Assembly (NCBI RefSeq): GCF_030012215.1
Contig: NZ_JASCXX010000002.1
Location: 62,001 to 126,000, forward strand
Length of the DNA: 64,000 nucleotides
Reading direction: 5' to 3'
Source: Anaerobaca lacustris
GTDB taxonomy: Bacteria; Planctomycetota; Phycisphaerae; Sedimentisphaerales; Anaerobacaceae
Program-made: the position numbers and the translations under genes
The notes under the pieces: model-generated
What the model saw: the letters and a program-made list of their open reading frames with translations, nothing else
Databases searched by the model: none
Told to the model about the DNA's origin: nothing
Shown here: piece after piece, positions 4,247 through 58,680 of the stretch
How the letters are laid out: each line of letters begins with the position of its first letter
Numbering within the stretch: the first letter of the stretch is position 1

Positions 4247-6829
4247 TCACTCCAGTGGCCCGCGAATCTCGCCGGCCGGGAATCGCTCCGTATGGACGTT
4301 GACGTACGCCCGGCCTTCCTCGATAGCCGAGAGCAGGTCGGCGACTGTCATTCCTGCCAGCGGCCCGACAAGGTCGGCGTCCGTGATGTCGCCGGCGCCG
4401 AGCCGGCCGGTGAACGTGCCCGGGATCAGCGCGGCCGGCGGCGCCGACGGATAGAGCCACACGGCCGGCGGACCGTCCCCGCCCGGTTCATTCGCGACGT
4501 GGATGTGCGCCTGGGTGACATTCTCAAGGGCCTGTACCTTGAGCTCGTACGACAGTGTGTCCTCCGCGCTCCACCTCAGAAGGGTCAGCCCCGTCGCGGT
4601 CGAATCGGTGCCGTCACCGGCTCCGGTCAGTACGGCGCCGATTGGGGGGGCGGCCCGGACCGCTTCCACCGCGCCGCGAATGGCGCCGCCCGGAAATGCG
4701 ATGGTATGGACGTTGACATAGGCCCGACCCTCGCGGATCGCGGTCAGCAAAGCGTCCATCGTCATCCCGGCCAGAGGACCGACGAAATCGGCGTCTGTGA
4801 TAGCGCCTTCGCCGAGCCGGCCGGAGAACTCGCCTGGGATCAGCGCGGTCGGCGGCGCCGACGGATAGAGCCACACGGCCGGCGGACCGTCCCCGCCCGG
4901 TTCATTCGCGACGTGGATGTGCGCCTGGGTGACATCCACGATGCCGTCTACATCCAGTTGGTACGACATCACCGCCGCATTCGGATCGAGTGTGAAGCGG
5001 GCCTGTCCGGTCGCCGTGACGTCGGCGCCGGCGGGCTCCGCGGACAAGTCAGCGGTGAATTCGGTCGGCGCCGCGACGATCTTCAGAACCACCCCGGTCT
5101 CTCCGGTCGGGCCGCCGTCGGTGTTGCCCAGCAGATAGACTTCACCCTCGGCATCCTGGCCGAACCCTTTGACGAACAGTCCCAACGGATCGCCCACAGA
5201 AGCGACCTGGAGATACTGAATCCTACCGGTGAACAGATCGGCCTCGAACAGGCGACCGCTCGGCGTCGAGAAGCTGAGCGACCAATCGCCGAAGAGGTAA
5301 TGCCCCCACAGTTCCGGAATTTCCGTCCCGTAGTACGCGTAGCCTCCAATCACGGCGATTCCATCATCGTGGTCGTACTGGGCCACCGGATCGATCAGCG
5401 TCGGATCGTCGAGAGGCAATCCGACATTCACGCCGGCCGGGTCGAACAGGAACGAACCTTCCTTGCGGTTCCAGCCGTAGTTGCCTCCCTTCTGGACGAA
5501 ATTGATCTCCTCGATGAAGCGTTGACCGACGTCGGCGACGATCAGAGCGCCGCTGCGGCGATCGAAGCTGAAGCGGTACGGATTGCGGAGCCCGTAGGCG
5601 TAGATCTCATCGACGCCGTCACCGCCGACGAACGGATTGTCCGCCGGCACACGGTAGGCGCCGTTGGCGCTGGTCGCATCGGGGCTGTCCGGCGTTCGGT
5701 CCGGGTCCAGCGGGTCGATGCGGACGATACTGCCGAGGATCGTATGGATGTTCTGTCCGTTGCCCTCGGGTCCATGGCCGGGCGAGGTGTCGTTGGCGCC
5801 GCCGCCGTCGCCCAAGGCGATGTAGAGATAGCCGTCCGGCCCGAACTCGATGTGGCCGCCGTCGTGATTGAATTGAGGCTGGTCGATTCGCAAGACCTCG
5901 CGCGAAACGGTCGGATCGATCGGCTGGCCGTAGGCCCCGGCTTGCCACTCCCGAATGACGCTCTGGTGGTCCATTTCCTCGGCGGGCCGATCCACCGTGA
6001 AGTCGGCCGGCCCGTGCAGCGGTTCGCTGGTGTACGTGTAGAACAGGCCGGATCCGGGGCTGTCTGCATCGGCGTAGCCAGGATGGAAGGCCAGACCCAG
6101 AAGCCCGCGCTCGTCGAAGTTCGTCCGTAGCGGCACGAGCAGATCGCTGACGTCCAGCAGTGGCGTCGCTGCCAGTACGCCGTCCTCGACGGTGTGGATT
6201 TGGCCGGTCTGATCCACGACGTACAATCGCGCCGGCACGCTCGGATCGGGCACCAGCAGGAGCGGCGCCGTCAAACCGGACGCCACCGGTTCCAATGCGA
6301 CCCGAACCGGTGATGGTGCGATGCGCTCGCCAATGGGCAGACCGGCGACCGTGAAATCACCGCGCATCGTGGTCGGGTGCGTCCGGCAGCGATAGCCGGG
6401 GTTGCGGCCGCCCTCGGCCATGGCCCGGTAGAGGGCTTCGGTGAGCGTGAACGCAACGGTGCCACGCCCGTCATCGGTCCAGGCCACCTCCGGATCGGAC
6501 TCGAACGGACCTGGAACGGTCATCGACAGAAGCACAGTGTCTTGCGATGCCGATGGGCCCTTGGCGATGACTTCAAATGGGTGAAATGTGTAATCGGTGA
6601 TGGTGACTTGATACCGCCTGCCCAGTTCCAGTGGCAGGGTGGGGTCTTCGCTGCCCAGCGGGGGAAATCCGACGTTGTCGGGGGCGAAGGCATCGAGTCG
6701 ATAGGATTCGAGACCCACGTCTCCGAACGTCCAGGCGACGTGAAGCGATTGGGCCGGCGCCAGCGTCGGCACCAATGCTGTGGCCGCCACCAGAAGGCAG
6801 ACCTTCCGCGCGATTCCAACTGCGTTCAT
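4247..6829 (-). CDS. Secreted glucose/sorbosone dehydrogenase-like protein with two CHRD domains
   Basis: An 860-residue exported protein with a signal peptide ending near LAPAQS. Residues about 25-165 resemble a cupredoxin-like region (FHPFEVIAKG, YRCRTHPTTMRGDF), though a full copper site is not certain. Residues about 180-580 form a GSDH-type six-bladed propeller (LLVPDPSVPARLYVVDQTGQI, GLLGLAFHPGY, NHDGGHIEFGPDGYLYIALGDGGG, YAYGLRNPYRFSFD, GGNYGWNRKEG). Two CHRD domains follow (about 595-720 and 735-860), each with ELKVQALENVTQAHIHV or a similar segment. GSDH domains oxidise sugars with PQQ; CHRD domains were first described in chordin and are of unclear function in bacteria. The ATG follows an AAAGGAGA site. 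It appears to be a single-gene transcript. Confidence 0.85.
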   Translation of the reverse strand: MNAVGIARKVCLLVAATALVPTLAPAQSLHVAWTFGDVGLESYRLDAFAPDNVGFPPLGSEDPTLPLELGRRYQVTITDYTFHPFEVIAKGPSASQDTVLLSMTVPGPFESDPEVAWTDDGRGTVAFTLTEALYRAMAEGGRNPGYRCRTHPTTMRGDFTVAGLPIGERIAPSPVRVALEPVASGLTAPLLLVPDPSVPARLYVVDQTGQIHTVEDGVLAATPLLDVSDLLVPLRTNFDERGLLGLAFHPGYADADSPGSGLFYTYTSEPLHGPADFTVDRPAEEMDHQSVIREWQAGAYGQPIDPTVSREVLRIDQPQFNHDGGHIEFGPDGYLYIALGDGGGANDTSPGHGPEGNGQNIHTILGSIVRIDPLDPDRTPDSPDATSANGAYRVPADNPFVGGDGVDEIYAYGLRNPYRFSFDRRSGALIVADVGQRFIEEINFVQKGGNYGWNRKEGSFLFDPAGVNVGLPLDDPTLIDPVAQYDHDDGIAVIGGYAYYGTEIPELWGHYLFGDWSLSFSTPSGRLFEADLFTGRIQYLQVASVGDPLGLFVKGFGQDAEGEVYLLGNTDGGPTGETGVVLKIVAAPTEFTADLSAEPAGADVTATGQARFTLDPNAAVMSYQLDVDGIVDVTQAHIHVANEPGGDGPPAVWLYPSAPPTALIPGEFSGRLGEGAITDADFVGPLAGMTMDALLTAIREGRAYVNVHTIAFPGGAIRGAVEAVRAAPPIGAVLTGAGDGTDSTATGLTLLRWSAEDTLSYELKVQALENVTQAHIHVANEPGGDGPPAVWLYPSAPPAALIPGTFTGRLGAGDITDADLVGPLAGMTVADLLSAIEEGRAYVNVHTERFPAGEIRGPLE
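4436..4521. repeat. 86-bp exact direct repeat, copy 1 (CHRD-coding)
   Basis: Bases 4436-4521 are identical to 4850-4935, offset 414 bases. The repeat encodes the AHIHVANEPGGDGPPAVWLYPSAPP core of the CHRD domains, so it arose by domain duplication and is recent or kept homogeneous. Confidence 0.9.
4850..4935. repeat. 86-bp exact direct repeat, copy 2 (CHRD-coding)
   Basis: Second copy of the repeat at 4436-4521, in the first of the two CHRD domains of the minus-strand protein. Confidence 0.9.
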
Positions 6830-8291: not shown

Positions 8292-10727
8292 TCACTGCAA
8301 TTTCTCGTAGGGCCACATCGCGATGCCCCCGTCCAGGACGCGGATGTCCTCGAAGCCCGACGCGCGGAGGATCAGCGCTGCTTCGTAGCCGCGCAGCGAG
8401 ATCTGGCCGAACGTCACGATCGGTTTGCCCTTCGGGATCTCCTCGATCCGTCCGCGCAACGTCGCCAGCGGGATCAGCGTCGCACCGGGCAGGCGGACCT
8501 GGTCGTGCTCGCCGGGCGTGCGGACGTCGAGAAAGACAAAGTCCTTCTTGTCCCGAAGCATCCGGTGCACTTCTTCGGCTGAGACGCCGACCATGTGACC
8601 GTCCAGCTTGTTGCGGGCGACGTTGGCGGCGGTAATCAGGTTGTCCATCGCCGGCGAGTAGGGCGGGGCGTAGCTGAGGTCGAGGCCCGCCACCTGATCG
8701 ACGGTCATGCCGGCGGCAATCGCGGTGGCGGCCACGTCGATTCGCTTGTCTCCCGCGCCGGGCCCGACGGCCTGGACGCCGAGGAGCCGTCGCGTGTCGC
8801 GATCGACCACGAGCTTGAGCAACAGCAGGCGCGCGGTGGACAGGTAGTTGGCCCGGTCCGGCGCCGGCGCCAGCGCGACGGTCACCGTGTAGCCCAGTTC
8901 CTTCGCGGCGCGCTCCGTCAGGCCGGTGCGGGCGACGCAATAGTCGAAGACCTTGCAGATCGTGCTGCCGAGGATGCCCGGAAACGCGTCCTCGCCCCCG
9001 CAGAGGTTGACGGCGGCGACGCGGCCCTGCTTGTTGGCGGTCGAGCCCAGCGGGACATAGGCCGGTCGGCCGGTAAGGATGTCGGTGCATTCGACGCAAT
9101 CGCCGGCCGCATAGATGTCCGGGTCCGACGTGCGCATCTGCTCGCTGACTTTGATCCCGCCGGTCTCGCCGATCTCCAGACCGGCCGCGCGGGCCAGAGC
9201 GGTGTTCGGGCGGACCCCGATGCCCATGATGACCAGATCGGCCGCCAGGGTCCCGCGGTCCGTCACGACGCGATGCACCTTGCCGTCGCCTTCGAACGCA
9301 CAGACCTTGGTGTTCGTCAGGACCTTGACGCCGTTGGATTCGAGATGCAATTCGACCAGTCGCGCCATTTCCGCGTCCAGGATGCCCAGGGTCTGCGGCT
9401 GCATCTCGACGATGGTCACGCGGCACCCGCTGCGGGCCAGGGCCTCGGTCGTCTCCATGCCGATCAGGCCGCCGCCGACGATGACCACGTCGCGCGCCCG
9501 GTCGCCGGAAAGGCCGGCTTTGATCCCTTCGGCGTCCTGGACGCCGTGCAGGCAGAAGATGTTGTCGAGGTCGTGGCCGGGAATCGACGGCCGGATCGGC
9601 GAAGCGCCCGTGGCGAGCACCAGCTTGTCGTACTCCAGGTCGAATTCCTTCCGGCTGCCAAGCTCCTTGACACGGACGCTCCTGGCGGCGCGGTCGATCT
9701 TGATGGCCTCCGTCCGGCTGAGGATGCGCACGTTCTTGACCTTCTGAAAGAACACCGCGTCGCGCAGCGCCCCCATCGGCGTGCTCATCAGCTCCGCATG
9801 GTTCTTGACCTGCCCCGAGATGTAATAGGGCAGCCCGCAGCCGGCGTACGAGAGAAACTGGCCTTTCTCGACCACCGTGACACTGGCGTGGGGCATCAGC
9901 CGAATCACCTTGGCGGCGACCTTGGGCCCCGCGGCCACGCCGCCGACGATCACCACCTTCATGGCGCTCGATCTGTCGCTGTCTGTGAGGCTGTCGATCT
10001 CGCTCGGGTCGGCCATCGGAAGCTGGATGTCGAGTCGGGCGCCGCCGAGATCGGCCTTGCCGGCCTGGACGGTGCCCCCCAGCGCCTCGACGACCGCTTT
10101 GACGAACGACAATCCCAGTCCGACCCCGCCGCGCGTCGAGCTGCGCGCCGATGCGGTCCGATGGAACGGCTCGAAGACCTTCTCTCGCATCCCTTCGGGG
10201 ATGCCCACGCCCGAATCGGCCACGCACAGATGGATGAGACGGTTCGCCGGTTCGGCGGTCAGCGTCAGCCGAACCTGGCCATGCGACGGGGTGTACTTGA
10301 AGGCGTTGTCAATCAGGGCATCCAGTGCTTCGGTCAGGGCCGGCTCCGTGCCATGGACGTACACTGGCTCGTCCTCCGCCTGCACCACGAAGGTCAGCCC
10401 GTATTCGATGGCCTTCTCTTCATAGCGCGTCCGGGTGCTGCGGACGATGCCCGCCACGTCCACGACGCCGTCGATATGCTCCTGACGTCCCAAGGCCGAG
10501 ACGATGGCCAGCATCCGCCGCACGGTGGCGACGCCCTCGTCGCATCGCAGATTCGCCCGGGCGATCAGGTCCTTCTGCTTCGGTGTCAGAGGCCCGGCCA
10601 CCTCGGTGGCCAGCACGTCCAGAAGGGTGCTGATGGTGCTGATCGGACTCTTGAGCTGATGCGCGATCAGCGAGGCGAATTGCAGGATCTCCGATTGACC
10701 GGGTTTGTTGTCGATCTCTTCCGCCAT
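8292..10727 (-). CDS. Histidine kinase / CoA-disulfide reductase-like flavoprotein / rhodanese fusion
   Basis: 811 residues in one uninterrupted frame. Residues 1-240 are a soluble histidine kinase core with phospho-acceptor H23 (LIAHQLKSPIS), N-box DNAFKYTPSHG (141-150), DSGVGIP and GGVGLGLS. Residues 256-700 are an FAD/NAD(P)H disulfide reductase of the CoA-disulfide reductase/NADH oxidase type, with GG-rich dinucleotide motifs (VVIVGGVAAG, VVIVGGGLIGMET), the single active cysteine C297 in SYAGCGLPYY and DIYAAGDCVE. Residues about 720-811 are a rhodanese domain whose cysteine position is Gly774. M256 (base 9962) could be an internal start, but no good ribosome site precedes it, so a true fusion is favoured. 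It is the middle gene of a three-gene run. Confidence 0.85.
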   Translation of the reverse strand: MAEEIDNKPGQSEILQFASLIAHQLKSPISTISTLLDVLATEVAGPLTPKQKDLIARANLRCDEGVATVRRMLAIVSALGRQEHIDGVVDVAGIVRSTRTRYEEKAIEYGLTFVVQAEDEPVYVHGTEPALTEALDALIDNAFKYTPSHGQVRLTLTAEPANRLIHLCVADSGVGIPEGMREKVFEPFHRTASARSSTRGGVGLGLSFVKAVVEALGGTVQAGKADLGGARLDIQLPMADPSEIDSLTDSDRSSAMKVVIVGGVAAGPKVAAKVIRLMPHASVTVVEKGQFLSYAGCGLPYYISGQVKNHAELMSTPMGALRDAVFFQKVKNVRILSRTEAIKIDRAARSVRVKELGSRKEFDLEYDKLVLATGASPIRPSIPGHDLDNIFCLHGVQDAEGIKAGLSGDRARDVVIVGGGLIGMETTEALARSGCRVTIVEMQPQTLGILDAEMARLVELHLESNGVKVLTNTKVCAFEGDGKVHRVVTDRGTLAADLVIMGIGVRPNTALARAAGLEIGETGGIKVSEQMRTSDPDIYAAGDCVECTDILTGRPAYVPLGSTANKQGRVAAVNLCGGEDAFPGILGSTICKVFDYCVARTGLTERAAKELGYTVTVALAPAPDRANYLSTARLLLLKLVVDRDTRRLLGVQAVGPGAGDKRIDVAATAIAAGMTVDQVAGLDLSYAPPYSPAMDNLITAANVARNKLDGHMVGVSAEEVHRMLRDKKDFVFLDVRTPGEHDQVRLPGATLIPLATLRGRIEEIPKGKPIVTFGQISLRGYEAALILRASGFEDIRVLDGGIAMWPYEKLQ

Positions 10728-32792: not shown

Positions 32793-34241
32793 GTGAGACG
32801 TCAAAGACGCTTGGTGTGGGCCGCGATGGGCACGGTGATGGCCTCGCTGTGCATCGCGGCCCTGACCGGGCTGTACGATTCTGGCATCGGAGAAGGGTGG
32901 CGCAACGGGTTCGTTGCGTGGCGTCTCATCGCGTGCTGCCTTGGGGCTGTGGGCGCGATCGTCCTCGGTCTGGCCTACCATCGGTTGGCCCGGACGGTTG
33001 CGTCCATCGCCCGGCAGCTTTCGTGTGATTTGGTCCTGCCAACCGATCTTCGCGCGGTCGAGCGGGCCGCCGAGGCGGTCCAGGCGCGCCTTCAGGAAGG
33101 GCGTGAGGCCGTCGACGAGCTGGAAGCCGAACTGACGGACCTCCGGCTGCGGTCCGAGCTGGCCGATCGGCAGAAGCAGCACACCGAGGCGATCATCTAC
33201 AGTCTGCGCGACGCCGTCGTGGTCGTGGACGAGTCCGATCGGCTGCTGATGGCCAATACGGCCGCGGCGCGGCTTCTGGAGTTCGATCCGGAGCAGGCGC
33301 GCTATCTGCCGCTGGATCGGAGCCTCGCGGCCCAATACAAGGAGTTCGTCCAGTTGATCCAGCGCAGCCGGCAGAGCGCCACGGAAGCCACGCGGCGCGA
33401 GATGGTGTTTGCCCGACCCGACGGCCCGCACACGTTCGATACGATCGTCTCGTGCGTGCAGGAGCGGGACAAGGTCTCCGGCGTCGTCGCCGTGCTGCAC
33501 GACATCACGCGAGAGAAGGAAGTGGCGCAGATGAAGAACGACTTCGTCAGCCACGTCTCGCACGAGCTGAAGACGCCGCTGGCGTCGATCACGGCGTATT
33601 CCGAGATGCTGGCCGACGGCGAGGCCGACGACGAGGAGACGCGCAAGGAGTTCTACCACGTGATTCAGAGTCAGGCGCAGCGTCTCAACCGCCTGATCGA
33701 GGACATTCTCAACATCTCACGAATCGAATCGGGACTGATCAAAGTCCAGAAAGAGCCGGTCAGTCTGACGATTCTGATCGAGCAGCAGATGCAGATGATC
33801 AAGGGCTTCGCCGAGGAGAAGGGCATCACCGTCACGGGACGCGCCCCCATCGTGTACGATCAGGTCCTGGCGGACAAGGACATGATCAGCCAGGTCATCG
33901 TGAACCTGCTGAGCAATGCGGTCAAGTACACGCCGTCCGGCGGGACGGTGCGGATCGAGACGGACGTGAACGAGGCCGATGCGCTGGCGCGCGTGACGGT
34001 CACCGACACCGGCGTCGGCATCCCGGCCGACGAGATCGATCACGTCTTCGACAAGTTCTACCGAGTGGGCGCCAACAACAAGCAGGCGAAAGGGACGGGC
34101 CTCGGCCTGAACCTCGTCCGCCAGATCGTCGAAACCGTGCACAAGGGCCGTGTGTTCGTCACCAGTCAGGTTGGCGTCGGCAGCACCTTCGGGTTCGAGC
34201 TGCCTCTGGCCGCCGCCGAGATGGCCGGCGCGACCCGGTGA
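32793..34241 (+). CDS. Membrane histidine kinase with PAS domain
   Basis: A 482-residue sensor kinase with two membrane segments (about 8-28 and 45-63), a coiled-coil linker, a PAS domain (about 130-240, VVVVDESDRLLMANTAAARLL), HisKA with H257 in FVSHVSHELKTPL, and HATPase_c (NLLSNAVKYTPSGG, DTGVGIPADE, GTGLGLNLV). The periplasmic loop is very short, so it probably senses an internal or membrane signal. GTG 32793 is fixed by a perfect GGAGGAG five bases ahead. Placed between the secretin and ATPase genes, it likely drives the receiver protein that follows. Confidence 0.92.
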   Translation: MRRQRRLVWAAMGTVMASLCIAALTGLYDSGIGEGWRNGFVAWRLIACCLGAVGAIVLGLAYHRLARTVASIARQLSCDLVLPTDLRAVERAAEAVQARLQEGREAVDELEAELTDLRLRSELADRQKQHTEAIIYSLRDAVVVVDESDRLLMANTAAARLLEFDPEQARYLPLDRSLAAQYKEFVQLIQRSRQSATEATRREMVFARPDGPHTFDTIVSCVQERDKVSGVVAVLHDITREKEVAQMKNDFVSHVSHELKTPLASITAYSEMLADGEADDEETRKEFYHVIQSQAQRLNRLIEDILNISRIESGLIKVQKEPVSLTILIEQQMQMIKGFAEEKGITVTGRAPIVYDQVLADKDMISQVIVNLLSNAVKYTPSGGTVRIETDVNEADALARVTVTDTGVGIPADEIDHVFDKFYRVGANNKQAKGTGLGLNLVRQIVETVHKGRVFVTSQVGVGSTFGFELPLAAAEMAGATR

Positions 34242-34300
34242 TCGACGGCCTTGGGCCTCTCCGCGGAGAGGATCGTAGCGAAACCCCGTTTTTGGAGTGG

Positions 34301-34699
34301 ATGAAAATGACAGGCAAGAAAGTGCTGATCGCCGACGACGAGATTCACATCATTCACGTCGTCGCCATCAAGCTGCGGAACAACGGATACGAGGTCGTCG
34401 CGGCCAACAACGGCGCCGAGGCGTACGAACTGGCGTGCAGCGAGAAGCCCGACCTCATCGTAACCGACTATCAGATGCCGTTCGTCACCGGGATCGAGCT
34501 GGTCGAGAAGGTGCGGAGCAATGAAGAGACCAGGCACATCCCGGTCGTCCTGCTGACGGCGCGCAGCTTCGCCATCGCGCAGGAGATGCAGCAATCGCTC
34601 GGGATCGAGGAGTGCCTCAGCAAGCCGTTCAGCCCGAAGGAGCTGCTCAAGACGATCCAGGACATTCTGTATCAGAGGGCCGTCGCCGTTCGGGGCTGA
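34301..34699 (+). CDS. CheY-like single-domain response regulator
   Basis: A 132-residue stand-alone receiver. The acidic pair is ADDE, the phospho-acceptor D56 is in IVTDYQMP, the switch Thr is in LLTARS and the Lys is in LSKPFSP. There is no output domain, so it must act by protein contact. GGAG precedes ATG 34301; ATG 34307 is an alternative. The likely partner kinase is the gene just upstream (59-base gap). Confidence 0.92.
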   Translation: MKMTGKKVLIADDEIHIIHVVAIKLRNNGYEVVAANNGAEAYELACSEKPDLIVTDYQMPFVTGIELVEKVRSNEETRHIPVVLLTARSFAIAQEMQQSLGIEECLSKPFSPKELLKTIQDILYQRAVAVRG

Positions 34700-34758
34700 C
34701 CCGGCCGGCGCGACGAGCGCCCGCACACTCTGGAATCTGCTGGACCGCGAGGAGGGCC

Positions 34759-36435
34759 ATGCCGAACATCATGACACACGGACTGACGTGTCTGCAACGA
34801 CGCGACCTGGAACGATTCGGCGCGCGCATCGGGCACTTTGGCGCCCACTTCGCCGTGGTGGACGCGGAGGGTCAGATTCTGCTCCGCCACGACGCCGGGC
34901 GGTTCGCCAGCGACACGGAGGCCGTCGTCGAAGCCGGGCGTGCCGTCTGCGAGGCCGTCCGCGACCGCGCCGAGACGGATGACGAAGGGCGCGTCTGGCG
35001 GTTCTGCGACGGCCACGTGCTTCTGGCCGCTGCGTTGTGTCTGCCCTGCAACGGCCCCGGCTGCGTTCGTCTGGCGGGCGCGATGGTGGTCGATCTGGGC
35101 GCCGAGGCGCCGTCGGCGGACGCCGACGCCATGCGCGTGGCGTATCTGAGCGAAATGATGCGGCTGGCCGCACAGGGGCTCCGCGATGCCGTGCGGAACG
35201 ACGAGCAGATGGAGAAGATGGGCCTGGAGCTGGCCCAGGTGTACGAAGAGCTTGTCCTGTTGCACAAGATCAACACGCACATGAAGGTCACCGAATCGGA
35301 CGGCACGTTCCTGCAGTTGGCCTGCGACAGCCTGACCGACATCGTGCCGGTCGAGGGGATCGCCATCGTGCTGGAGCGGATGGTCGAAGGCGAGCGGCGG
35401 TTCATGGTGGCCGCCGGGTCGGGACTCATCGACCTGTCGCCTCACATGACGGCCGTGCTGCACAGCCGGCTCGCCGAGGACATCCGGCGAGGCCAGGAGG
35501 CCCTGCTGGACAGCGAGGTCGATACGGCGTTTCGCTTCGAGTGGCCGCAGAGCGTTCGGAACATCATCGCCGTGCCGCTCTGCGCCAAGGGGCCGCAGGA
35601 GGCGCGCAGCGCCGGCCGCGTGCAGAATGCGGTGGCGATCATCGGGTACATGGTCGCGATCAATCGAATCGACAAGCCGGATTTCGACAGCACGGACATG
35701 AAGCTGTTCGCCTCCGTGGCCAGCGGCTGCGCGGTGTTCATCGAGAACGGACGTCTGTTCAACGATCTCAAGGAACTCTTCGTCGGGTCGCTGAAGGCCC
35801 TGACCAACAGCATCGACGCCAAAGACCAGTATACGCGAGGGCATTCCGAGCGGGTCGCCATCATCTCACAGTGGCTGGCCGAACGCGTCGCCGAACGGGA
35901 ACGGCTCGATAGCGAGCAGATTCACCGCATCTATCTGGCGGGGCTTCTGCACGACATCGGCAAGATCGGTGTGGACGAGAACGTCCTGCGCAAGAACGGC
36001 AAACTCACGCCGGAAGAACGCGAATGCATCCAACGCCATCCATCCGTGGGAGCGGGCATCCTGCGCGGCATCAAACAGATGCAGGACATCGTGCCTGGCG
36101 TGCTCCACCATCACGAACGCGTCGACGGGAAGGGCTATCCGGAAGGTCTGACGGGACGCGAAATGTCGCTCACCGCCAAGATCGTCGGACTGGCCGACAG
36201 CTTCGATGCGATGACCTCGAAGCGGGTCTACCGGGACGCCATGACCGTGGACCAGGCGCTCGACGAGATCCGAAAGGGCCTGGGCACGCAGTTCGACGAG
36301 AAGGTCGGGACGATCTTCCTCGAAAGCGACATTTATCATCTGTGGGACCGGATCCAGGGGAATGGCCCGTCTGCGTACGGAGGCCGCCATCTCGCCGACT
36401 ATGGGACCACCGCTGTGGGGACTCTGTTGCGATGA
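34759..36435 (+). CDS. GAF and HD-GYP domain protein (predicted c-di-GMP phosphodiesterase)
   Basis: 558 residues. An N-terminal sensory region (about 1-140, with a cysteine cluster ALCLPCNGPGC) and a coiled-coil linker are followed by a GAF domain (about 175-335) and an HD-GYP domain (about 345-535). The HD pair is in LLHDIGKIGVDE, and HHERVDGKGYPEGL carries the GYP signature. HD-GYP enzymes hydrolyse c-di-GMP to pGpG or GMP. ATG 34759 follows GGAGGG. The stop overlaps the STAS gene start (ATGA). Sitting two genes before the ATPase, it is a likely regulator of the machine. Confidence 0.9.
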   Translation: MPNIMTHGLTCLQRRDLERFGARIGHFGAHFAVVDAEGQILLRHDAGRFASDTEAVVEAGRAVCEAVRDRAETDDEGRVWRFCDGHVLLAAALCLPCNGPGCVRLAGAMVVDLGAEAPSADADAMRVAYLSEMMRLAAQGLRDAVRNDEQMEKMGLELAQVYEELVLLHKINTHMKVTESDGTFLQLACDSLTDIVPVEGIAIVLERMVEGERRFMVAAGSGLIDLSPHMTAVLHSRLAEDIRRGQEALLDSEVDTAFRFEWPQSVRNIIAVPLCAKGPQEARSAGRVQNAVAIIGYMVAINRIDKPDFDSTDMKLFASVASGCAVFIENGRLFNDLKELFVGSLKALTNSIDAKDQYTRGHSERVAIISQWLAERVAERERLDSEQIHRIYLAGLLHDIGKIGVDENVLRKNGKLTPEERECIQRHPSVGAGILRGIKQMQDIVPGVLHHHERVDGKGYPEGLTGREMSLTAKIVGLADSFDAMTSKRVYRDAMTVDQALDEIRKGLGTQFDEKVGTIFLESDIYHLWDRIQGNGPSAYGGRHLADYGTTAVGTLLR

Positions 36436-54879: not shown

Positions 54880-57800
54880 TTGGACAGGCCAAGTGTATTC
54901 GCTAAGTCTCTGCGGGGGGGGTCCGTGTCAATCGTCCTGGCATCGGTCTTGCTTTCCGTGACGGTTTTCGCCCAGGTGGGCCCATCGCAGAGCGGACAAG
55001 GCAGCGATGACGCCATGATGCGCCAGTTGGTGCAGTACTTCATGCGCGTCGGGACCGAGCAATACGAACGAGGCTACTACATCGAAGCCGAGAAGACCTT
55101 CCAAATGGCCCAGGGGTACGGGGAGTTTCTGGAACCACTGGAACGTCGCAAGCTGGATTCGATGTTGGAGAGATCCGGCCTGGCCGCCATCGAGCGCAAG
55201 CGTGCCCTCGCAGCCAAGGAAGCGGGCGAGCAACTGCTGGCCGGCGGCCAGACGGCTGCGGCGCGCGAGAGCCTGGCCGGCCTGAAGGACAGCGAGTTCC
55301 TGACCGAGCGGGAGCGTGCGGAGATTGCCGCATCGCTTCGGCAGATGGCGGCGGCTCCTGTCAGGGCCGCGGCCCCGGCGCGCGCACCTGATGCGCCGGC
55401 GGACCCTGCCGCCGAACAGCCCGCCGAGGCGCAGCCCGGCGAGGCCCTCGACCGGTTCAAGACCCGAATCGCCGATCTGTACTACGAGAGCGTCAAGGCG
55501 TATCACGCCGGTGACTTCGACACGGCCAGGGCCGGGTTCGCGCAGGCCCTGGACAGCGGTCTGATGCCCGCGCCGATGGTACAGACGATTCAGGGGTATC
55601 TCCAGGACATGGACGGCGCGGCGCCGAGCGCCGGGACATCGCAGCCGATCACGCTGTCTCATGCGCGATCGTCGGACGCGGTGCGACCGGCTTCCCACGA
55701 CCTGGCGGGCATGCCGACGGTGTATCCCGCGGCCGGCACGCCGGCGGCGAGGCCCCCGCAGAGCGAGCGGCAGCGCATCGAGCAACTGTACAACCAGAGC
55801 TGGGAGCTGTACTCCGAAGGCGAGCTGGAAGCGGCGCGCGAGGGGTTCGTGGAAGTGGCCAAGAGCGGTCTGTTCACCGCGCCGGAAGGCCGGCGACCGG
55901 AGGACTACATTGCGACGATCGACAGGCTGCTGGCGGTCTCCCGCAACCTGGCGTCTTCGCCGCAGAGACAGGGCGTCGCGGAGGCGGGGGCGGCCGAGGG
56001 GCAGGGCGGCTTCATCGAGGTCATCAATCGGCGAAGAAACATCATTCGAAGTCACATGCAGGCGGTCGTCAACGACGCCGCCGATCGCGCCCAGACGTTC
56101 ATGGCCCAGGGCGAGTTCGAGAACGCCCGCGAGCCGGTCGACGACGCGCAGCGTCTGATCAATCAGAATCAGCTCCACCTGGGCGACGATCTGTATCGGC
56201 AGCACAGCAGTCGGCTCAGCAGCGTCCTGGAAGCGATTGCCGAGGCCGAGGCGGCCCGCGACAGGCAACTGGCCGAGCAGAAGCGCCTCGAGGCCGTCGA
56301 GGCCCAGCGGCGTCTGCGTCAGGAGGCCGAGACGGATCGCCAGCAGAAGATCGACGAACTGCTGACGCGGACCAAGGCCTACTGGAAGCAGCAGCGCTAC
56401 GAAGCGGCGCTGGGGCAGATCGAGAGCCTGCTGGCCATCGATCCGCTGCACGACGACGCGCTGACGCTCAAGCAGCAGTTGGAAGACATGATCTATATGC
56501 GCAAGCAGATTGCGCTGGACCGGGAATACGACAAGCAGAGAACGCAGGTCTTCATGGATACGGCCGAGGCCGGGATTCCGTATGCCGACGAGGTGACGTA
56601 TCCGAAGAACTGGCGCGAGATCTCGGCGCGGCGCAAGCCGGACGAACCGATCGGGCTGGACCCGGAGAGCATGCGGGTCTACCAGCAGCTTGATACCCTT
56701 GTGGATCTGTCGGCGCTGACACCCGAAATGCCGTTGAGTCAGGCGATCGAAATCGTTCGCGCCTCCGTCGAGCCTCCGTTGAGCATCGTCGTCCTTTGGC
56801 GCGATCTCTACGACAACGCGGAGGTCCAACCGAGCACGAACATCGACATGGACGGGCTGCGCAACGTCAAGCTGAGCATCGCGCTGGAGAACCTGCTTCG
56901 CGCGGTGACGCCTGTCACGGCCTTTTCGCCGATTTCCTATGTGGTCAACAAGGGCGTGGTGACGGTCGGCACGCAGGAGTCCCTGCCCACCCAGAAGCTG
57001 GAGACCCGTGTCTATGACATCACCGACCTCGTCGGCGAGCCGGCCAACTACGGCGGCATGCAGGGCCTGATGATGGGCATGATGATGGGCATGATGGGCA
57101 CGAGCATGAGCATGCCCCAGGGCGGCGGCTCGGGCGACCAGGGCGGCGGCGGCGGCATGGGCGGCGGCATGATGGGCGGCGGCGGCATGGGCGGCGGCAT
57201 GATGGGCGGCGGCGGCATGGGTGGCGGCATGATGGGTGGCGGCATGGGTGGCATGGGCATGGGTGGCATGGGTGGCGGCATGATGGGCGGCGGCATGGGC
57301 GGCGGCATGGGCGGCGGCATGATGGGTGGCGGCATGGGCGGCGGCATGGGCGGCGGCATGATGGGCGGCGGCGGCATGGGCGGCGGCATGGGCGGCGGCG
57401 GCATGATGGGCGGCGGCGGCATGGGCATGATGGGCGGCACGATGAGCGTGATGATCGCCCAGAACCTCCGACAGCTCATTCAGGAGAGCATCGAGCCGGA
57501 AAGCTGGTATGAGCTCAGCGAGTTGGGTGAGGGCACCATTATGGTGTACCCGACCCAGCAGCCCAAGAAGCTGGCCATCTACCAGACGCCGGAAGTGCAC
57601 CAGCAGATCAACACCTTGCTCGACCAACTCCGTACGGCGCTCGGCCATCAGGTCTCGATCGAGGCGAGGTTCCTCGTCGTCAGTGAGAACTTCCTGGAGG
57701 AAGTGGGGCTCGACGTCGATTTCAGCTACAACTTCGGCGGCAAGTGGGGTCTGATGACGGTTTCGCAGACGTCGTATGACACCGCCAGACCGGACGCCTC

Positions 57801-58572
57801 CACGAAGGTCCCCGGCAGTCTGGGCTCGCTGGTCAACTCGCCGGCCGCCAGTGCGACCGGAGGATACGGCTCCGTCCTGGACGATCTGCAGGTCAGTCTC
57901 CTGCTCAGGGCGACCCAGGGCCGGACCGATTCCAAGGCGCTGGTGGCTCCCAAGGTGACGGTGCTCAGCGGCGAGTCGGCGAACTTCGCGCTGAACAACA
58001 CCGTGACCTACGCGCTGCCGCCGGACGTGACGCAGAGCTCCGCCGTCGGTGGGACGGGTGCGACGAGCACCACGCAGGGCATCTATCAGAACATCGGTAT
58101 GGTCATGGTCGGGAGCAATCTGAGCGTCAGCCCGACGATCACCAAGGACAAGAAGAACGTCCTGCTGAACATCGTCACGCTCCAGAACGACCTGCTTCGA
58201 TTCCGAACGCACCAGGTCGAGGCCCTGGTGGATACCGATGCCCAGGAGGGCACGACGGTGCAGACCCTGCCCTACGAAGTGACGGTCCCGGAGACGGAGG
58301 CGTCCACCGTGATGACGCGCGTCAGCGTTCCGGACGGTGGCACGCTGCTGCTGGGCGGACACAAGGTCACTGCGGAAGTCGACAAAGAGGTGGGGGTCCC
58401 GGTCCTCAGCAAGATTCCGGTCCTGGGTCGCTTGTTCTCGAATCGCAGCAAGATCCGGGACAACAAGATCCTGCTGATCCTGGTCAAGCCGACGATCATC
58501 TTGCAGGAAGAGCGTGAAGAGGATGCGTTGGCCGCGCTGGAAGCTGGCATCGGCAACGAGTTCCGATACTGA
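54880..58572 (+). CDS. Giant secretin with TPR-like N-terminus and Gly/Met stretch
   Basis: 1230 residues. A signal segment (about 15-32) is followed by TPR-like helical repeats (AEKTFQMAQGYGEF, FDTARAGFAQALDSG, LEAAREGFVEVAKSG) and a long charged coiled coil (about 380-560). An STN/N0-like region (about 605-715) comes next. Residues about 726-855 are almost only Gly and Met, in GGGMGGG/MMGGG units. The C-terminal 350 residues are a secretin core (LLLRATQGRTDSKALVAPKVTVLSG, DGGTLLLGGHKV, VPVLSKIPVLGRLFSNRS, ILLILVKPTII). The TTG start has a perfect AGGAGG seven bases ahead. It precedes the giant exported protein by 108 bases. Confidence 0.9.
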   Translation: MDRPSVFAKSLRGGSVSIVLASVLLSVTVFAQVGPSQSGQGSDDAMMRQLVQYFMRVGTEQYERGYYIEAEKTFQMAQGYGEFLEPLERRKLDSMLERSGLAAIERKRALAAKEAGEQLLAGGQTAAARESLAGLKDSEFLTERERAEIAASLRQMAAAPVRAAAPARAPDAPADPAAEQPAEAQPGEALDRFKTRIADLYYESVKAYHAGDFDTARAGFAQALDSGLMPAPMVQTIQGYLQDMDGAAPSAGTSQPITLSHARSSDAVRPASHDLAGMPTVYPAAGTPAARPPQSERQRIEQLYNQSWELYSEGELEAAREGFVEVAKSGLFTAPEGRRPEDYIATIDRLLAVSRNLASSPQRQGVAEAGAAEGQGGFIEVINRRRNIIRSHMQAVVNDAADRAQTFMAQGEFENAREPVDDAQRLINQNQLHLGDDLYRQHSSRLSSVLEAIAEAEAARDRQLAEQKRLEAVEAQRRLRQEAETDRQQKIDELLTRTKAYWKQQRYEAALGQIESLLAIDPLHDDALTLKQQLEDMIYMRKQIALDREYDKQRTQVFMDTAEAGIPYADEVTYPKNWREISARRKPDEPIGLDPESMRVYQQLDTLVDLSALTPEMPLSQAIEIVRASVEPPLSIVVLWRDLYDNAEVQPSTNIDMDGLRNVKLSIALENLLRAVTPVTAFSPISYVVNKGVVTVGTQESLPTQKLETRVYDITDLVGEPANYGGMQGLMMGMMMGMMGTSMSMPQGGGSGDQGGGGGMGGGMMGGGGMGGGMMGGGGMGGGMMGGGMGGMGMGGMGGGMMGGGMGGGMGGGMMGGGMGGGMGGGMMGGGGMGGGMGGGGMMGGGGMGMMGGTMSVMIAQNLRQLIQESIEPESWYELSELGEGTIMVYPTQQPKKLAIYQTPEVHQQINTLLDQLRTALGHQVSIEARFLVVSENFLEEVGLDVDFSYNFGGKWGLMTVSQTSYDTARPDASTKVPGSLGSLVNSPAASATGGYGSVLDDLQVSLLLRATQGRTDSKALVAPKVTVLSGESANFALNNTVTYALPPDVTQSSAVGGTGATSTTQGIYQNIGMVMVGSNLSVSPTITKDKKNVLLNIVTLQNDLLRFRTHQVEALVDTDAQEGTTVQTLPYEVTVPETEASTVMTRVSVPDGGTLLLGGHKVTAEVDKEVGVPVLSKIPVLGRLFSNRSKIRDNKILLILVKPTIILQEEREEDALAALEAGIGNEFRY
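57055..57445 (+). repeat. Gly/Met-coding tandem repeat
   Basis: About 390 bases of imperfect repeats built from GGCGGCATGATGGGC and GGCGGCGGCATG units, inside the secretin frame. Length is likely to vary between strains by slippage. Confidence 0.9.
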
Positions 58573-58680
58573 CAGCTCCATGTCGGAGAGTCGGTTGTAC
58601 GTGGGGTCTACGACGCGCGAGGGATTCCCTACACGATGATGTTCTACGGATTCAGGCACAGCAAAGACGGAAGTGGACAT

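Follow-up and report, generated by a model that had tools for sequence, protein, structure and literature searches.

Histidine kinases normally signal to receivers, and the known redox kinases sense via quinones, hemes, Fe-S clusters, PAS-bound flavins or lone cysteines. In MmoS, NifL and Aer, the redox state of FAD is the signal, and it is read via PAS-FAD domains. A sensor at the C-terminus is unusual in histidine kinases. CheA is a soluble kinase whose regulatory domain follows its ATPase domain towards the C-terminus, and an internal start in the E. coli cheA gene gives a short product. In RegB of R. capsulatus, the kinase carrying an oxidised Cys265 is inactive (PMC9147068). Among the persulfide reductases, the loop TTYGAVR of the A. 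fulgidus enzyme (AfNpsr) closes over CoA (PMC7969121), and the Cys of the rhodanese domain is the sulfur-accepting residue, which is important for turnover in Npsr/CoAPR (PMC7969121, PMC9405070).

The window analysed here, a stretch of 64,000 nucleotides from Anaerobaca lacustris, carries a gene in which both types of protein are joined. The frame at 8292-10727 of the minus strand runs from ATG to stop through 811 codons without an internal stop; the kinase and the reductase thus share one frame, as the preliminary description had stated. Its domain list was incomplete, since it omitted a C-terminal rhodanese domain at residues 716-805. The features are as follows.

8292..10727, minus strand: fused gene, histidine kinase, FAD/NADH persulfide (CoA-disulfide type) reductase and rhodanese, 811 amino acids
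10488..10697, minus strand: DHp (HisKA) helices, residues 11-80, with the phospho-acceptor H23 (HQLKSP) and Cys62; HisKA match at 15-74
10011..10349, minus strand: HATPase_c ATP-binding domain, residues 127-239 (Pfam E=1.4e-22)
9960..10010, minus strand: linker, residues 240-256, the last residue being Met256
8640..9962, minus strand: FAD/NAD(P)H reductase and dimerisation domains, residues 256-696 (Pyr_redox_2, Pyr_redox_dim)
8313..8582, minus strand: rhodanese domain, residues 716-805 (Pfam Rhodanese E=7.5e-14), the Cys of the catalytic loop being replaced by Gly774

The HisKA match scored 26.4 bits, slightly below the Pfam cut-off of 26.9. In the reductase part, the Pfam limits were 256-552 for Pyr_redox_2 and 591-696 for Pyr_redox_dim, and the landmarks are Cys297, the active-site loop STPMGALRD (315-323) and Tyr686/Tyr690. 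The AlphaFold2 model of the monomer (mean pLDDT 87, pTM 0.68) contained the DHp hairpin (11-40/49-80), the ATPase domain, the reductase and the rhodanese; the least confident stretches were 1-10, 249-253 in the linker, and 687-692. When this genome was compared with relatives, omega was 0.05-0.13 in the kinase, the reductase and the rhodanese and 0.5-0.8 in the linker: purifying selection acts on all domains of the fusion.

The fusion is genuine and conserved. Full-length orthologs in frame were found in approximately 32 genomes, in addition to several interrupted by contig ends, and neither a stop nor a frame change occurs between the halves in any intact relative. Relatives having two genes separated by a stop were looked for and none was found. 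The carriers are mostly uncultured anaerobic bacteria of the Planctomycetota and Hydrogenedentes. Identity to the orthologs was 98% and 90% within the genus, 73% within the family and 53-67% within the order and class; farther away, it was 54% in G761 (a more distant member of the same phylum) and 57% in G883 (phylum Hydrogenedentes). In the Hydrogenedentes loci L005/L103 (G814), there is a frameshift within the kinase, with the reductase frame open and its GGAG-ATG start kept; this frameshift is either a sequencing error or the mark of a decaying kinase.

In the kinase tree, all fused sequences fall into a single clade (SH-aLRT 99). When a kinase-only profile was run against 397 genomes of the class, all matches from this clade (277-354 bits) were fused or lay at a contig end, and no free-standing member was found in these genomes. 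The next-best matches, at 180-186 bits, were kinases of 450-466 amino acids, which in this genome are RegB-like membrane proteins. The reductase is often encoded alone, without the kinase, and no similar kinase was found in the 1.5-5 kb flanks of the unfused reductases. In a quick tree, on which the grouping of the reductases rests, fused and unfused members were partly interleaved, with six label changes, at least three of them forced. Taken with the monophyly of the kinase, this interleaving suggests from the sequences a single fusion event, after which the kinase was lost in some lineages.

The same genome probably contains a second kinase-reductase fusion, broken by a contig gap. A kinase fragment lies at the edge of C71 (1-727, minus strand; L218) and a reductase fragment at the edge of C38 (1-1718, plus strand; L219). 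The two ends share TAAGAC and, judged by eye, could continue in one frame, although six bases are weak evidence. Both halves have the same relative in their respective trees: the fused protein of G102 is paired with the C71 half among the kinases, and among the reductases it clusters with the C38 half, together with an unfused copy from G087. The rhodanese Cys is intact in this copy, the internal ATG is accompanied by a Shine-Dalgarno (SD) sequence, and an OsmC-like gene comes next.

The kinase part is of the HisKA type: H23 is located in the two-helix hairpin of DHp, and the N, G1, F and G2 boxes are present. No variation was seen among 28 fused proteins at H23, N141, D171, G173, G175, G201, G203 and G205, nor at Q24, P28 and C62. 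The kinase core recognised in the preliminary description (H23, the N box and the G boxes) is thus present and conserved, with the N box at N141, the G1 box at D171-G175 and the G2 box at G201-L206. The residue at H+1 is Gln, and that at H+4 is Ser, Gly or Glu in the fused kinases. HisKA phosphatases usually carry Thr/Asn at H+4; therefore, the fused kinase is expected, on these residues, to have weak phosphatase activity.

Cys62 is invariant in the planctomycete fusions and also present in the second copy (C71); it is replaced by Ser in two Hydrogenedentes copies. It aligns with the redox-box Cys of the protein L221 (H+39 vs H+40), a true ActS/RegB that scored 594 bits with NF033792. A Cys in this column is also found in about a third of the unrelated kinases compared, and the closest non-fused kinases do not have it. 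The nearest non-fused relatives are RegB-like membrane kinases with the quinone heptapeptide GG(V/I)ENPF. Membership of the fused protein in the RegB family was considered and rejected: NF033792 was absent from the best 25 matches of the kinase domain, and the fusion has no membrane domain with the GGxxNPF quinone motif of RegB/ActS.

The reductase part has the PNDOR fold with the single redox Cys297 and, at the dimer interface, the paired Tyr686/Tyr690 that characterise the CoADR/Npsr active site. This active site is invariant in the relatives compared; Cys297, already pointed out from the sequence, lies in SYAGCGLPYY. The CoA-disulfide reductase model TIGR03385 gave 423.6 bits, below its curated cut-off of 578.8 bits, and a plain CoA-disulfide reductase was rejected on this ground. 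The best PDB match, by both sequence and fold, was instead 6pfz, the NADH-dependent persulfide reductase (Npsr) of A. fulgidus, with 45% identity and a target TM-score of 0.97. The earlier assignment to the FAD/NAD(P)H flavoproteins of the CoA-disulfide family is therefore kept, but the enzyme type is changed to a putative persulfide reductase of the Npsr/CoAPR type with a rhodanese tail.

The rhodanese domain is present, and Gly774 occupies the position of the sulfur-accepting Cys. The loop reads IVTFGQISLRGYE, and this position is Cys in every unfused homolog covering it. Most fused proteins also have Cys; the exceptions include G002, G005, G035 and G231/G265 with Gly, L003 (the G001 copy) with Ala, and G373/G441/G043 with Ser. 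The Cys was thus lost several times among fused members, and never among the unfused members covering the position. The low omega indicates that the domain is kept even without its Cys.

We regard the protein as a soluble sensor histidine kinase, the sensor of which is a complete NADH-dependent persulfide (CoA-persulfide/disulfide) reductase placed behind the ATPase domain; in our estimate, this assignment has an even chance of being right. The redox-sensing kinase design put forward initially remains the best reading, the fusion itself being conserved, and the function, signal and output are what we infer. The state of the centre formed by the flavin, Cys297 and bound CoA would be set by the NADH supply against the load of sulfane sulfur/persulfide or disulfide. 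Since both halves work as dimers, the state of the reductase dimer behind the ATPase domain might bias the DHp dimer and thereby alter autophosphorylation of H23; the AlphaFold2 model is of a monomer, which cannot show coupling between the halves. Oxidation, persulfidation or reduction of Cys62 possibly mediates the control of H23, and the attached reductase could reset Cys62. The phosphate would then pass to a member of the CheY-like receiver family that adjoins the fusion in relatives and also occurs in hydrogenase operons, so that hydrogen and electron metabolism might be tuned. A more detailed proposal is that of a new class of one-protein redox sensor, in which the kinase reads the turnover of the attached NADH-dependent persulfide reductase, the reductase can reset a thiol switch (Cys62) in the DHp domain, and in other lineages the single gene yields both the sensor and a free enzyme; it is tentative and seems to us rather unlikely.

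The gene neighbourhood bears on the output. In the genus of the window, the fusion is flanked on one side by a gene for a Gfo/Idh/MocA-type oxidoreductase and on the other by one for which Pfam gave no match, and no receiver was found next to it. The initial statement that no receiver is adjacent holds for this genus but not for five relatives (G035, G062, G309, G178 and G049) among about 28 fused loci with flanks. The distance between the fusion and a CheY-like receiver on the same strand is 43-161 bases in G035, G309 and G062. In G049, the receiver is 14 bases upstream of the fusion, beside a second kinase. In G178, it is 49 bases downstream on the opposite strand and adjoins a hydrogenase maturation protease-like gene and the gene for a [NiFe] hydrogenase large subunit. 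The gene order in G062 is fusion, receiver and membrane-type hydrogenase operon; in the C39 operon of this genome, the position of the G062 fusion is held by a RegB-like membrane kinase. Redox genes recur near the fusions (Rex, [NiFe] hydrogenase and HypC): in G043 they are a Rex-like repressor and a membrane-type hydrogenase operon; in G041, HypC, adjoined by a HypD-like gene.

The receiver family of these neighbours is otherwise located in hydrogenase operons, and three homologous receivers are encoded elsewhere in this genome (C18, C39 and C6). In the alignment of the receivers, the acidic pair, the phospho-Asp and the Lys are conserved. The [NiFe] hydrogenase operon on C18 (L215:2724-6518) closes with the genes for a maturation protease and for a single-domain receiver, and no kinase was found among the neighbouring genes read. 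This orphan receiver is a plausible partner of the fusion; since none is adjacent in the window genus, the choice of partner for this fusion is a guess. On C39 (L217), a membrane-type hydrogenase operon is grouped with a receiver and with a RegB-like membrane kinase (GGVENPF), a combination that possibly represents quinone-sensing control of a hydrogenase in planctomycetes. Since receivers and hydrogenase genes adjoin the fusion in relatives, the output is testable.

Other genes of the window were also inspected. An ordinary two-component cluster at 32793-36435 (plus strand), comprising a PAS-histidine kinase and, after it, a receiver and an HD-type domain protein, is about 22 kb away and unrelated to the fused gene. 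The 860-residue product of 4247-6829 (minus strand) combines two CHRD domains with one resembling glucose/sorbosone dehydrogenases. A frame of 1250 amino acids at 54928-58680 (minus strand) had no Pfam match at E<=1e-5, and a similarly long open frame lies opposite, at 54880-58572 on the other strand.

The direction of control could also be the reverse. ATP binding or phosphorylation of the kinase half, or an outside input, may gate the persulfide reductase, in which case the protein would be a regulated enzyme and no sensor. Full conservation of the enzyme active site is consistent with this; so are the fact that only 14 residues precede the HisKA match, with no other sensory domain in the protein, and the adjacency of a receiver in only about 5 of 28 loci. 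However, those five genomes do place a receiver, the usual target of a histidine kinase, beside the fusion, and the repeated loss of the rhodanese Cys was confined to fused members. We consider reverse control fairly unlikely.

The translation starts were compared as well. In this gene, the predicted pairing with the anti-SD sequence is -7.1 kcal/mol at the kinase start and -2.2 kcal/mol at the internal Met256. In most lineages outside the clade of the window, GGAG is found a few bases 5' of an in-frame ATG (L042, L043, L045-L049, L069, L070, L072, L086, L088, L093 and others), and this ATG sits six or seven codons upstream of the first strand of the reductase. The preliminary remark that Met256 lacks a good ribosome site is thus correct for this gene but does not extend to many of its relatives. 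GGAG occurs at the reductase-start ATG in 14 of the 23 fused genes having an ATG there, compared with 5.3% of 588 other internal ATGs (binomial P 7e-13, relatedness among the genes being ignored). L086, L088 and L089 are three further cases beyond the 14; in L084 and L107, the reductase start is a GTG that a strong SD accompanies. The Gly codon forming the SD is GGA, which otherwise accounts for 5-31% of the Gly codons in those genes; its use in spite of this scarcity points to selection on the nucleotides. In addition, several genes with the internal GGAG have a kinase start without any SD. Many relatives therefore probably make, as far as these motifs indicate, both the full fusion and a free reductase.

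In the clade of the window, the internal start is eroded, and G002 has GTG at that position. In L040, L067 and L082 (G035, G062 and G343), Phe or Leu stands at the reductase N-terminus; with no start codon there, the fusion is obligate. Loss of the internal start and, in most cases, of the rhodanese Cys in the window's clade would be expected if the enzyme had moved from bulk catalysis to sensing. A general tie between the two losses was rejected, since L046, L088 and L089 have Ser at the Cys position and yet a strong internal SD. Set side by side, the relatives that have the internal start and those that lack it show a natural progression, from a gene with two products to an obligate fusion.

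These starts raise the question of whether a kinase and a reductase gene have been compacted into one frame, with internal initiation making most of the reductase and the full fusion being a minor, uncoupled product. The GGAG enrichment, the choice of GGA at that spot and the kinase starts without SD in several relatives are what such a pair might look like. On the other hand, the internal site is gone in the window's clade, three loci have no start codon to use, the better SD of this gene lies at the kinase start, and the halves are never separated in an intact relative. Taken together, a compacted pair with a minor, uncoupled fusion is unlikely.

The fusion could also be a scaffold, the kinase being an orphan hub that is stabilised or localised by the abundant enzyme fused to it while the halves exchange no signal; this might explain the variable, fast-evolving linker and the low model confidence at 249-253. 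It is quite unlikely, since no free-standing member of the kinase clade was found in the 397 class genomes, the active site is invariant and shows no decay, and redox genes recur in the context. An assembly or frame artefact merging two genes has a negligible probability and was rejected: although the relatives' data are mostly metagenome assemblies, the identical junction is found in approximately 32 independent genomes of at least 20 genera.

If the sensor kinase reading is true, NADH and sulfane-sulfur metabolism would be coupled directly to phosphorylation in one protein, and the fusion would offer an experimentally accessible case of a signal that consists in the turnover of an enzyme. 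It suggests a previously undescribed route from redox or sulfur state to a phosphorylation signal. No description of a kinase-persulfide reductase architecture was found in the open-access literature searched, an absence that carries little weight given this scope.

In comparison with the known systems, residues 256-805 match the Npsr/CoADR-RHD/CoAPR enzymes (6pfz; 3nta from S. loihica; 3icr from B. anthracis; 8a56 from E. faecalis) over their full length, and the loop STPMGALR at 315 resembles TTYGAVR of AfNpsr. Unlike Npsr/CoAPR, the fusion has an N-terminal histidine kinase, and Gly774 replaces the sulfur-accepting Cys of the rhodanese. With RegB/PrrB/ActS (NF033792), it has in common a HisKA-type kinase and a Cys at the aligned position, whereas it lacks a membrane or quinone domain and its putative sensor is a C-terminal enzyme. 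Unlike MmoS, NifL and Aer, it carries a complete pyridine nucleotide-disulfide reductase with the catalytic Cys and the CoA site. CheA shares with it the C-terminal position of the regulatory domain, but phosphotransfer in CheA involves HPt, and CheA has no enzyme domain. The component families are known; their combination, with a complete redox enzyme as the C-terminal sensor, appears to be new.
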